Source of the DNA: Geothrix sp.
GTDB lineage: Bacteria > Acidobacteriota > Holophagae > Holophagales > Holophagaceae
Length of the DNA: 42,034 nt
Direction of reading: 5' to 3'
NCBI GenBank assembly: GCA_031292655.1
Contig: JARLGO010000222.1
Span: forward strand, 90,042 to 132,075
Shown here: one piece after another, positions 5,241 to 18,761 of the stretch
Position numbering within the stretch: the stretch's first letter is position 1
Layout of the letters: the number at the start of each line of letters is the position of its first letter
The notes under the pieces: model-generated
The model's database searches: none
Seen by the model: only the letters and a program-made list of their open reading frames with translations
Told to the model about the DNA's origin: nothing
Translations under genes and position numbers: made by a program

Positions 5241-5253
5241 CAGCCTGTATGGC

Positions 5254-5389
5254 AGGCTGCAGAAGTTCGCTCTGGTGAGTTGGATAGCCGTGTTTCACGA
5301 GCACCGGAGCGGAGCGTACATCAGGTACGTGAGCACCGGAGCACAGCGAAACGCGGCTAGGCAACCGCCAGAGCGGACTTCTGCAGCCT
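5254..5389. repeat. Nested palindromic repeat, copy A (related to 16780-16888)
   Basis: Outer arms aggctgcagaagttcgctctgg / ccagagcggacttctgcagcct; inner arms tagccgtgtttc / gaaacgcggcta; innermost cgtac/gtacg; two copies of GAGCACCGGAGC. Confidence 0.9.
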
Positions 5390-5459
5390 GTCACGGCATA
5401 GGGGGGCTGCGTTGGCTCCCCTTCCCCGCCCGCCCAAAATTTGCCACATTCGGCGCATC

Positions 5460-14567: not shown

Positions 14568-16063
14568 GGTTCCTCGCTCTGCCCCACAGCCTGGCGCGGA
14601 GGATGATCCTCTTCCTGCTGACGGGCTTCGCGGTCATCCAGCTCTTCGGGCTGCTGATTCACACCGTGAACCAGGTGCATCTGCAACAGCTGGAGGAGGA
14701 GCAGGAATTCGCGACCCGCGCCGTCATCATCTACCGGCACATCGCCATGGCGGCACCCGAGGACCGCGATGCCCTGCTGGCCAGGGAACCGCTGCCCACG
14801 AACGACAAGGCCAGCCTCTCCTCGCTGCCGCCCATCGCCAACACGTTCAGCATGCCGATGAACGCGCGCAACGCCATCCGCGCCGCGATCTTCGATTACG
14901 GCGTTCCCCCGCAGCTGCACCCGCACGGGCTGGTGCTGCGCATGCAGGGGTTTCCGCCACGCTTCATCATCAGCTTCGGCCTGCCGGATAATTCATTCTT
15001 CCCCGGCCCGCCGCCCTTCCCGCAGAATGGAGGACAGCCCTTCCCGCAAAATGGAGGCCCCCCCTTCCCGCAGAATGGCGGGCCGCCCTTGTTTGGCCTG
15101 GGCCCGCCGGAGCTAGGGATGCCCGAGCTGTCATTCATGATGCCGCCGACATCATGGCTCACCATCACCTCCACCCTGCCGCCGCCTGCCCCGTGGCGTT
15201 CGCCAGGCTTCGCCACTGCCTTCATCGTGATGACGCTGCTCGGCGGGGTGATGATTACCTGGGCGGTGCGGCAATTGCTTCAGCCGGTGAAAACCCTGGC
15301 CGCCGCGGCCGAGGCGCTGGGGCGCGATGTCGTCAACGCCCCGCCGCTGCCCGAGAAGGGACCGTCCGAGATCGTCGTCGCCGCCAAGGCCTTCAACACC
15401 ATGGCGGCGCGGGTGCGGCGCTTCGTCGAGGACCGCACCTTCCTGCTCACCGCCATCGGGCATGACCTGCGCACGCCGATCACCCGGCTCAAGCTGCGCG
15501 CCGAGTACATGGAGGATGACGAGCAGAGGACCAAGATGCTGGCGGATCTCGACGAGATGGAGGCGATGGTCGCGGCAACGCTGGCCTTCAGCCGGGACGT
15601 GACCACCACCGAGAAGGTGGCGCGGATCGACCTCGCCAGCCTGCTGCGCACGATTCTGGACGACGCCGCCGATGGCGACCCGGACCACGCCACTGCGCTG
15701 AACTATGCGGGGCCGGAGCATCTGCCGGTGAACGCCCGCCCCCTGGCGCTGAAGCGGGCTCTGACCAATCTCGTCGGCAACGCGCTGAAATATGGCGATG
15801 CCGCGCATGTCACCCTGCACCCGCCCGCCAAGGGCGTGTTGCGTCTCGACATTGAGGACCAAGGCCCCGGCATCCCCGCCGCCGAGATGGAGCGCGTGTT
15901 CGAGCCCTTCCGCCGCCTGGAGACCAGCCGCAACCGCGAGACCGGCGGTTCCGGGCTTGGGCTGTCCATCTGCCGCAACATCATCCGCGCCCATGGCGGG
16001 GATGTGAGCCTGACCAACCTGCCCGAGCGGGGCTTGCGCGTGAGCGTGACCCTCCCGGTTTGA
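14564..16063 (+). CDS. Membrane sensor histidine kinase (HAMP, HisKA, HATPase)
   Basis: Two hydrophobic segments, AIGHDLRTPITRLKLRAEYM H-box, NLVGNALKYGD N-box, DQGPGIP, GSGLGLSICRNI; overlaps the response regulator stop. Confidence 0.94.
   Translation: MRFLALPHSLARRMILFLLTGFAVIQLFGLLIHTVNQVHLQQLEEEQEFATRAVIIYRHIAMAAPEDRDALLAREPLPTNDKASLSSLPPIANTFSMPMNARNAIRAAIFDYGVPPQLHPHGLVLRMQGFPPRFIISFGLPDNSFFPGPPPFPQNGGQPFPQNGGPPFPQNGGPPLFGLGPPELGMPELSFMMPPTSWLTITSTLPPPAPWRSPGFATAFIVMTLLGGVMITWAVRQLLQPVKTLAAAAEALGRDVVNAPPLPEKGPSEIVVAAKAFNTMAARVRRFVEDRTFLLTAIGHDLRTPITRLKLRAEYMEDDEQRTKMLADLDEMEAMVAATLAFSRDVTTTEKVARIDLASLLRTILDDAADGDPDHATALNYAGPEHLPVNARPLALKRALTNLVGNALKYGDAAHVTLHPPAKGVLRLDIEDQGPGIPAAEMERVFEPFRRLETSRNRETGGSGLGLSICRNIIRAHGGDVSLTNLPERGLRVSVTLPV
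15011..15082 (+). repeat. Three tandem 24-bp repeats encoding PFPQNGG(Q/P) in the kinase periplasmic domain
   Basis: ccgcccttcccgcagaatggagga / cagcccttcccgcaaaatggaggc / ccccccttcccgcagaatggcggg. Confidence 0.9.
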
Positions 16064-16121: not shown

Positions 16122-16736
16122 ATGGGCGAAAACGCCAGGGCAGGACTAGGTTTACCAACGGGCTTCCCGCAACGCTTGACGCGCCCGCTCATCGCTATCG
16201 ACGGCCTGCCCTGCGCGGGCAAGACCACGCTCGCCATGCGGCTGCAACAGGCCCACGGGTTCGAGTGCCTGCATGTGGACGAATTCCTGCGCCCCGAGGA
16301 GGAATGGCGCGGCTGCCAGCCCGCCTTCCCGTTCCCCTATCTCCGCTACGAGGAATTCCTGCAGGCGGTGAGCGACCTCGCCGAACTGGGGGCGTGCAGC
16401 TACCACCCGTTCGACTGGACGACGCTGCAAGTCTCCACCACGCCGCGCCAGATCACCACGCTGCGCCCGGTGATCGTGGAGGGCATCTCCGCCCTGGTGC
16501 CGCTGCTGGAGCCCTATTACGGGCTGAAAATCTTCATCGACAGCGACCGCAACAGCATCCTCGACATCGCGCCCAAGCGCAGCCTGGGCATATGGCTGCG
16601 CGAATGGCGGGAAATCTTCCTGCCCAGCGTGGACATGTACATGCTCACCCACCCGGAGCGGCGGGCCGACATCATCATCCCCGGCCGTGGCAGCCGGGGC
16701 AAAAATGCTGAAATGATCTACGCTCTCAAGGATTAA
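16122..16736 (+). CDS. Uridine kinase-like P-loop NTPase
   Basis: LIAIDGLPCAGKTTLAMRLQQ Walker A, CLHVDEFL, VIVEGISAL, IFIDSDRNSILDIAPKR. Confidence 0.75.
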   Translation: MGENARAGLGLPTGFPQRLTRPLIAIDGLPCAGKTTLAMRLQQAHGFECLHVDEFLRPEEEWRGCQPAFPFPYLRYEEFLQAVSDLAELGACSYHPFDWTTLQVSTTPRQITTLRPVIVEGISALVPLLEPYYGLKIFIDSDRNSILDIAPKRSLGIWLREWREIFLPSVDMYMLTHPERRADIIIPGRGSRGKNAEMIYALKD

Positions 16737-16779
16737 CCGGAATATGGTTAATAATTATAACAACACGTTTACGTATCAA

Positions 16780-16888
16780 AGGCTGTTTCAGAAGTCGCTC
16801 TGGTGAGTCGTCCAGGGGTGATTTTTGAGCACCGGAGCGCAGAAAATCACCCCTGGACGGCCGCCAGAGTAGACTTCTGAAACAGCCT
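16780..16888. repeat. Nested palindromic repeat, copy B (related to 5254-5389)
   Basis: Outer arms aggctgtttcagaagtcgctctgg / ccagagtagacttctgaaacagcct; perfect 17-bp inner arms cgtccaggggtgatttt / aaaatcacccctggacg around loop ttGAGCACCGGAGCGcag. Confidence 0.92.
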
Positions 16889-16889
16889 C

Positions 16890-18761
16890 TCAGCCTTCCG
16901 CCTCTTCCAGCGCCGTATGCGCCTCCAGCCAGCTATGCTCGGCGGCGTCGATCTCGCGCTTCACCACAGCCAAACGCTGCGTCACCTTCGTCAGCTCCGC
17001 CGTCTTGGCCTGGGTGTAGATCTCCTCGCTGGCCAGCCGCGCTTCCAGGCTTTCCTTTTCCGTCAGCAGCTTCGCCAGAACCTGCTCCGCCGTCTTGGCG
17101 GCCTGGCGCAGCGGGGCGAGCTTGGCGCGCGCCTCGGCCCGCGCGGCCTTGTCGTTCTTCTTGGCGTCCACTTGCTGTTTTGCCGCCGGGGCGGCGCGCT
17201 CGCTCATGGTGGCGGCATAGGCGGCGAGATCGCCCTCGAACGGCGTGACCTTGCCATTCGCCACCAGCAGCAGCCGGTCGGCCACGAGGTCCACCAGATA
17301 CGGGTCATGCGAGATCAGCACCACCGCACCTTCGAAGGCGGTGAGGGCTTTCACCAGCGCATCGCGGGCGTCGATGTCCAGATGGTTGGTCGGCTCGTCC
17401 AGCAGCAGCAGATGCGGGGCATCGCGGGTGGCGAGCGCCAGCAGCAGCCGCGCCTTCTCACCGCCCGACATCGCGCCCACCTTGGTGTTCACACGGTCGG
17501 CATCCAGCCCGAAGCGCGCCGCCTGGGCGCGGATCTGCGGCGGCAGGGCCTTGGGCAAGGCGCGGGCCAGATGGTCGTAGGGCGTGTCATCCGGCACCAG
17601 ATCATCCTCCTGGTGCTGGGCGAAATAGCCGATGCGCAGGCCCTTCACCCGGAACTCCCGCCCGCGCAGGGCTGAGAGGCGCCCGGCCAGCAGCTTCGCC
17701 AGGGTGGATTTGCCGTTACCGTTCTGGCCGAGCAAAGCGATGCGGTCTTCCATGTCGATCCGCAGCGACACGCCGGTGAGGATTGGCTTGCTATCGTAGC
17801 CGATATCCACGCCATCGAGCTGTAGCATGGGCGGCGGCAGCGCCTCCGGCGAGGGGAAGGAGAATTCGGTGGCGTGATCCTCGACCACGGACTCGATCTG
17901 CGGCAACCGCTCCAGCGCCTTGATACGGCTCTGCGCCTGACGGGCCTTGGAGGCCTTGGCGCGGAAACGGTCCACGAAGGACTGCATATGCGCCCGCGCC
18001 TCGGCGGCTTTTTCCGCCGCGCGGGCCTGCTGCAAGGCGCGCTCGGTCTTGATGCGCACGAACTCCGCGAAGCCGCCCGGGGTGAGGGTCAGCTTGCCCC
18101 GGTCCAGATGCACGATGGCCTCCGCCGCATGGTCGAGCAACTGGCGGTCATGGCTGACGAGCAGGATGGCGCCGGGGAATTTCTGCAAATAGCCTTCCAG
18201 CCAGAGCGTGGCTTCGAGGTCCAGGTGGTTGGTCGGCTCGTCCAGCAGCAGCAGGTCGGGCTCGGAGAACAGCACCGCCGCCAGCGCCACGCGCATGCGC
18301 CAGCCGCCGGAATAGCTGGACATCGGGCGGGCTTGCCATTCCTCGTTGAAGCCTAGCCCGGCCAGGATGGAGGCGGCGCGGGAGGGCGCGGAGTCCGCCT
18401 GGATGGCGAAGAGGCGCTCATGGATTTCCGCCAGGCGCTCGGCCGGGGTTTCCGGGTCCTCGGCCGCGGCCAGCAGCTCGGCGCGCTCGGTATCGGCGGC
18501 CAGCACCACATCCAGCGGCGTGATGTCCCCGCCCGGGGCCTCCTGCGCCACATAGCCCAGCCGCACCCGGTTGCCGAGGCGGATGGTCCCGCCATCCGGG
18601 CGCAGCACACCGGCGATGAGTTTCAGCAGCGTGGACTTGCCGGCCCCGTTGCGGCCGATCAAGCCGATACGCCGCCCGTCATCCACCATCAGGCTGGCAT
18701 GTTCAAGCAAAGGCCGTCCGGCGATGCTGTAGGAAAGGTCTTCCAGGCTCAAAACGCTCAT
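16890..18761 (-). CDS. ABC-F family ATP-binding protein
   Basis: Two ABC cassettes ([32 protein letters not shown]), signature motifs [13 protein letters not shown] and [12 protein letters not shown], no transmembrane region, coiled-coil C-terminus. Confidence 0.93.

Follow-up and report, generated by a model that had tools for sequence, protein, structure and literature searches.

Copy B, a palindrome at positions 16779-16889 of the 42,034-nucleotide stretch analysed here (the window), is very probably a non-autonomous MITE of the IS5 family (IS1031-like) that inserted into the stop codon of an ABC-F gene and later lost its apex. All features by which IS5/IS1031-type MITEs can be tested are found, namely matching ends, a TNA duplication, the lack of a transposase gene and dispersed copies. 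New with respect to the known elements of this type is the interior, which is conserved, strand-specific and compensating, and is common to copies with different-looking ends. MITEs are usually regarded as decayed IS remnants; in these elements selection on the interior is suggested by the conserved core, by pervasive compensatory change that extends to the transposase-binding ends, by strand-specific folding and by the oriented preference for stop codons. In the proposed mechanism an IS5 transposase supplied in trans would recognise the GAGGCTGTTTCAGAAGTCGC-type ends of copy B and insert it at the TCA/TGA that forms the ABC-F stop codon; the duplication of these three bases would leave the gene intact, and the apical hairpin would later be deleted between two direct copies of GAGCACCGGAGCG. 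We infer both the mobilisation by this particular IS5 group and the place of the apex deletion in this order of events.

Extent and anatomy of the element

Copy B forms a near-perfect 111-bp palindrome on the plus strand, whose exact limits, 16779-16889, replace the boundaries of 16780-16888 given in an earlier note on this DNA, and it folds into one hairpin (DNA energy -50 kcal/mol, z = -13), with none of 200 shuffles folding equally well. It is bordered on the left (16776-16778) and on the right (16890-16892) by the target-site duplication TCA, the right copy of which, read on the minus strand, also serves the ABC-F gene as its stop codon TGA, leaving a gap of 0 nt rather than the 1 nt stated before. 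The left terminal inverted repeat (AAGGCTGTTTCAGAAG, 16779-16794, plus strand; family consensus GAGRCYGTTTCRGAARTTCGC) and the right one (16874-16889, minus strand, reverse complement GAGGCTGTTTCAGAAG) give ends of the IS5/IS1031 type, AAGGCTG...CAGCCTC. The left end opens with A instead of the G of the family, and the right repeat starts with GAGGCTGTTT, the same as in an IS5-family IS found in Mesorhizobium (L308). Further inwards lie GAGTC (16805-16809, plus strand), which conforms to the CcrM-type methylation site GANTC and occupies a family column, and the inner arms CGTCCAGGGGTGATTTT (16809-16825) and AAAATCACCCCTGGACG (16843-16859), both given on the plus strand, which pair perfectly over 17 bp, as already described, and have no other occurrence in the window. 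Between the arms the family alignment and the covariance model place the residual core GAGCACCGGAGCGCAG (16827-16842, plus strand), one of two direct copies. The motif shared with copy A that had been taken for a loop is, in copy B, the remnant after loss of the apex and of one GAGCACCGGAGCG copy.

Copy A (about 5253-5390, plus strand) is the sister element at full length, in which both core copies are present, as is the apical hairpin CGTACATCAGGTACG. A covariance model of the family, trained with copy A and with copy B left out, matches only A and B in the window, the latter with 42.5 bits (E = 6e-12), so that the similarity of the two scaffolds, noticed earlier, far exceeds chance. Relative to this model copy B lacks exactly 32 positions, all at the apex, and one short copy resembling it occurs in an Acidocella MAG (L130 = L307). 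Members of the family measure 111-142 bp, carry no transposase gene and are dispersed; in full members two GAGCACCGGAGCG motifs flank a small apical hairpin, which copy B lacks. From left to right a full element consists of the end GAG[AG]C[CT]GTTTC-GAAATTCGCT, a CTGG helix, GAGTC, the variable arm, GAGNACCGGAGCGSAG, the hairpin CGTAC..GTACG, TGAGCACCGG(A)AGCGCAG, the second arm, GGCCGCCAG, AGTAGA and the right end. Of 42 aligned elements 40 have GAGTC at the same column; it is present in B and not in A. Dam controls IS10, and by analogy it may be conjectured that CcrM controls transposition of the element via GANTC. Since copies are numerous, checkable against empty sites and easily cloned, strand use, transposase recognition and any CcrM control can be tested directly.

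Insertion sites and the IS5 partner

The ABC-F family ATPase gene (16890-18761, minus strand; best hit NF007921, with NF000355 above cut-off) converges with a gene for a uridine-kinase-like P-loop protein (16122-16736, plus strand; weak family matches), and beyond copy B lies an AT-rich, terminator-like region with a ATTAACCGGAATATGGTTAAT hairpin (16732-16752). In the closest relative found (L336; ABC-F 91% identical) the ABC-F stop leads straight into the homologous AT-rich region with TTAACCAT..GGTTAAT, indicating that this region pre-existed and that copy B is missing there. Copy A is missing as well in the closest relative (G335), in which its site spans 35 bp as compared with 185 in the window. 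On the ABC-F gene the insertion probably had a near-neutral effect, the 3'UTR having gained one more hairpin ahead of the native terminator-like one. Elsewhere in the window (15011-15090) three 24-bp tandem repeats (CCGCCCTTCCCGCAGAATGGAGGA) lie within a histidine kinase gene.

The source of the contig (C375) affects how copy numbers can be read. RapZ of the window is about 40% identical to RapZ of 36 genomes of the same genus, and about 40% identical to a second RapZ on another contig of the assembly, which resembles the assembly's own genus; the ABC-F protein, by contrast, reaches 91%, 76% and 71% identity to genomes in the family of a Rhodovastum MAG (Acetobacteraceae). Judged by these identities, the contig is mis-binned and derives from an Acetobacteraceae-like bacterium. 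This accounts for there being just two copies in the nominal genome and makes a copy count across the window's own assembly meaningless.

The insertion polymorphism among relatives that the earlier note had envisaged is thus seen at the sites of both A and B, and it recurs at the HU-gene loci of Mesorhizobium, where 29 of the 30 loci fetched lack an insert before the stop codon. The nearest empty loci (L219, L220) read ...GCGC-TTA-GTTGACTG or ...CCGC-TTA-GTTGACTG, and the filled locus of the same species (L164/L218) reads ...GCGC-TTA-[GAGACTG...CGGTCTC]-TTA-GTTGACTG, so that the pair represents an insertion with duplication of TTA. An identical TNA on both sides is found in 23 of 54 copies with recognisable ends, where about 0.02 would be expected. 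Insertion at 5'-TNA-3' with a 3-bp repeat has been described for the IS1031 subgroup of IS5 (PMC12016507).

An autonomous IS with matching ends exists in Mesorhizobium (L308/L309). It is 906 bp long, with the ends GAGGCTGTTTGGAAAATC / GAGTCGGTTTGGAAAATC and duplications of TTA or TAA, and its transposase scores 236 bits against the IS5-family model NF033580 (cut-off 110). The right end of the Mesorhizobium element, GAGACCGTTTGGAAACTC, matches the IS end GAGGCTGTTTGGAAAATC; this partner, the best one, was recovered by searching for the element ends, and for the window's own species the terminal repeats were compared with the family consensus only. For that organism, represented here by the mis-binned contig, no IS5 copy came to light whose ends are identical to those of B, which counts against the MITE reading. 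Among IS5 copies with DUF4096 (PF13340) in several genomes most gave no detectable terminal inverted repeats in the scan, and one (L260) has GAGCCTG ends and a TAA duplication.

Paired arms, strand asymmetry and orientation

In 42 aligned elements 93.4% of the cells pair and 24 of 42 pairs have changed on both sides, with all measures of pairing and covariation above 500 of 500 shuffles and above every slid control, counts that are not probabilities because the aligned elements are related by descent. The proposal that conserved borders and core together with variable but paired arms reflect a maintained structure is thereby borne out. It had also been claimed that the inner arms of B are unrelated to those of A, but the two sets occupy the same columns of the family alignment, and the arms of A and B are homologous and have diverged by compensatory changes. 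The arm of copy B together with GAG agrees at 18-19 of 21 positions with Acidocella/Acetobacteraceae copies. The copy nearest to the B arms (L372: CGTCAAGGGGGGATTTTT / AAAATCCCCCCTTGATG, flanked by TAA/TAA) differs from the left arm of B at two positions (A to C, G to T), both compensated on the right. From these paired differences and the family columns it follows that the arms are passed on by descent and change in pairs.

How the arms stay paired is a separate question, and it is conceivable, though the less favoured possibility, that they are matched by palindrome correction at the DNA level (template switching at a cruciform) instead of by selection, the element being otherwise inert. Such a process is compatible with the MITE reading, and the strong covariation of terminal repeats and inner arms alike would agree with it. 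Correction without strand preference, however, predicts equal numbers of A.C and G.T imperfections, whereas the imperfect pairs in variable columns comprise 99 G.T and 23 A.C. The strands also differ in folding: the GAGCACCGG (plus) strand folds better than its complement in 54/54 full copies (RNA parameters; mean 17 kcal/mol), in 53/54 model-drawn copies from four genomes, in 35/39 copies of other subfamilies and, after removal of the core, still in 52/54, although the copies are related and the effective sample is smaller than these counts. The direction of the neighbouring genes has no effect on this difference, so that the asymmetry belongs to the element and not to the host mRNA.

Insertion is strongly oriented as well. 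Among 54 copies, 26 have their right end exactly on the stop codon of a neighbouring minus-strand gene, but in only 2 does the left end fall on the stop of a plus-strand gene, and L-R- gene arrangements outnumber L+R+ by 62 to 17; a second sample gave, in the same order, 37 vs 7 and 20 vs 7. Because ORF calling was mechanical and orthologous loci are included, the p-values are indicative only. Since TNA includes TGA and TAA, stop codons are natural and harmless targets, but the TNA target by itself does not account for the direction of insertion. Ordinary MITE biology accounts neither for this orientation bias nor for the strand-asymmetric conserved interior, and both count against the MITE reading, as does the deviating first base of the left end of copy B.

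The exact abutment of 26/54 elements on stop codons and the great stability of the hairpin could also be taken to mean that it serves the ABC-F gene as a terminator or as an RNA element of the 3'UTR and is kept by selection on the host mRNA; a 3'UTR or terminator role had earlier been thought probable for copy B. This is unlikely, since the element is missing at the closest relative's ortholog and its core motif was found in none of the fetched Acetobacteraceae orthologs 3' of the called stop (calls were mechanical, and some are wrong). Copy B sits between the stop codon and the native hairpin, which is older and also present in the element-free relative. It has no U-tract directly after the full hairpin: on the minus strand there is no T-run after the full stem, and a search for intrinsic terminators gave only 6-pair partial matches inside the arm. 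The better-folding strand, moreover, is opposite to the ABC-F mRNA, and is the same whatever the gene context. Nothing in the window reached the Rfam gathering threshold, and below it almost only miRNA models appeared, as is typical of any long hairpin.

Strand-specific folding at the level of the element and oriented insertion would likewise be expected of a REP/RAYT-like single-stranded mobile element (IS200/Y1 type) with the plus strand as the transposing ssDNA hairpin, but the terminal inverted repeats and the 3-bp TNA duplication point to a DDE (IS5) mechanism acting on double strands and an IS5 partner with matching ends exists, which makes this improbable to a still greater degree. That the arms arose by capture of host sequence and its duplication as an inverted repeat, as had been suggested from their variation among copies, can practically be dismissed and is not needed to account for them, since they align column by column across genera and the nearest matches of the B arm, which has no other match in the window, are other members of the family.

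Distribution of the family and related repeats

Returning to the IS5-type MITE, relatives of copy B were found in at least 116 genome-contig stretches, mostly of Mesorhizobium, Devosia, Acetobacteraceae, Acidocella and Inquilinus, the few matches outside these main groups looking like chance, as well as in 49 viral-collection contigs and on plasmids of Sphingobium, Mesorhizobium, Shinella, Rhizobium, Bosea and Legionella. The eight carrier genomes hold at least 7-81 copies each (as lower bounds, 81 in Inquilinus, 43 in the Rhodovastum MAG, 42 and 8 in two Devosia genomes, 26 in Mesorhizobium, 19 and 7 in two Acidocella MAGs and 9 in another MAG), and the model found none either in the window's closest relative or in four further genomes from the Acetobacteraceae family. 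Of 142 genomes drawn evenly from the class, 14 gave a match under strict filters. The copy on a Legionella adelaidensis plasmid (L037:1512-1607) is full, with apex and compensating arms, and lies outside the Alphaproteobacteria.

A second class with the same core has ends such as GGTGTGTTGAGATTCAGG...CCTGAATATCAACACACC (L385-L402 in Mesorhizobium; L031, L035 and L036 in Sphingobium and Shinella) and is probably moved by another IS group. The outer arms of the Sphingobium type at first seemed locus-specific, but are more likely other terminal repeats. Quite tentatively, these elements may form an alphaproteobacterial MITE superfamily, with at least one Legionella plasmid copy, in which one hairpin module is combined with different terminal repeats. 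In this view the module would function in single-stranded form, as RNA or ssDNA of the GAGCACCGG orientation, on behalf of the element itself, and the element would insert at stop codons in a fixed direction, with the functional strand antisense to the host gene.

IS5-family, IS1031-type ISs and their MITEs share with this family terminal repeats starting with GAG, the 3-bp TNA duplication (PMC12016507) and an IS5 transposase as partner, whereas the elements described here have no transposase, measure 111-142 bp and consist internally of a conserved compensating hairpin instead of IS sequence. The CIR elements (Caulobacter CcrM-associated intergenic repeats) are similar in being intergenic alphaproteobacterial repeats of about 110 bp with a conserved GANTC, but they are described with two hairpin arms and a linker, with GANTC at or near a terminal loop and no terminal inverted repeats (PMC2229807), which sets them apart from a single end-to-end hairpin with terminal repeats and GANTC near the outer helix. 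Other bacterial MITEs, such as RUP, which is thought to be mobilised by IS630, Correia/NEMIS and ERIC (PMC2229807, PMC10969869), resemble the family in size (100-200 bp), terminal repeats, target-site duplication, long stem-loop, intergenic position and an IS with the same ends as presumed mobiliser, and differ in their ends, hosts and core. The resemblance to the RIME / ABC mosaic elements of rhizobia is one of description only, these being palindromic mosaics that lie between genes in Rhizobiales. A text search of the literature for the core sequence returned no relevant paper.

Several further variants were observed. In eight viral-collection contigs (L042, L048, L049, L061, L064, L066, L076, L083) elements with differing arms follow the same conserved gene end (...DAIKLLKF); these contigs may be gene transfer agent clusters, and long retention at this site would suggest a function there. 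A subfamily (L099, L102, L116, L134, L165, L192) has an additional hairpin, GTTCTACTGCG..CGCAGTAGAAC, within the second half of the core, and in Mesorhizobium (L087, L113, L131, L145, L149, L218) the apex harbours further palindromic repeats of rhizobia (GCGCATGATCC..., GGACGCGC...), one palindrome having inserted into another. At about position 2690 of L156, what we take to be an IS110-type transposase gene, going by its resemblance, starts inside the apex of an element, as if the hairpin were the target.
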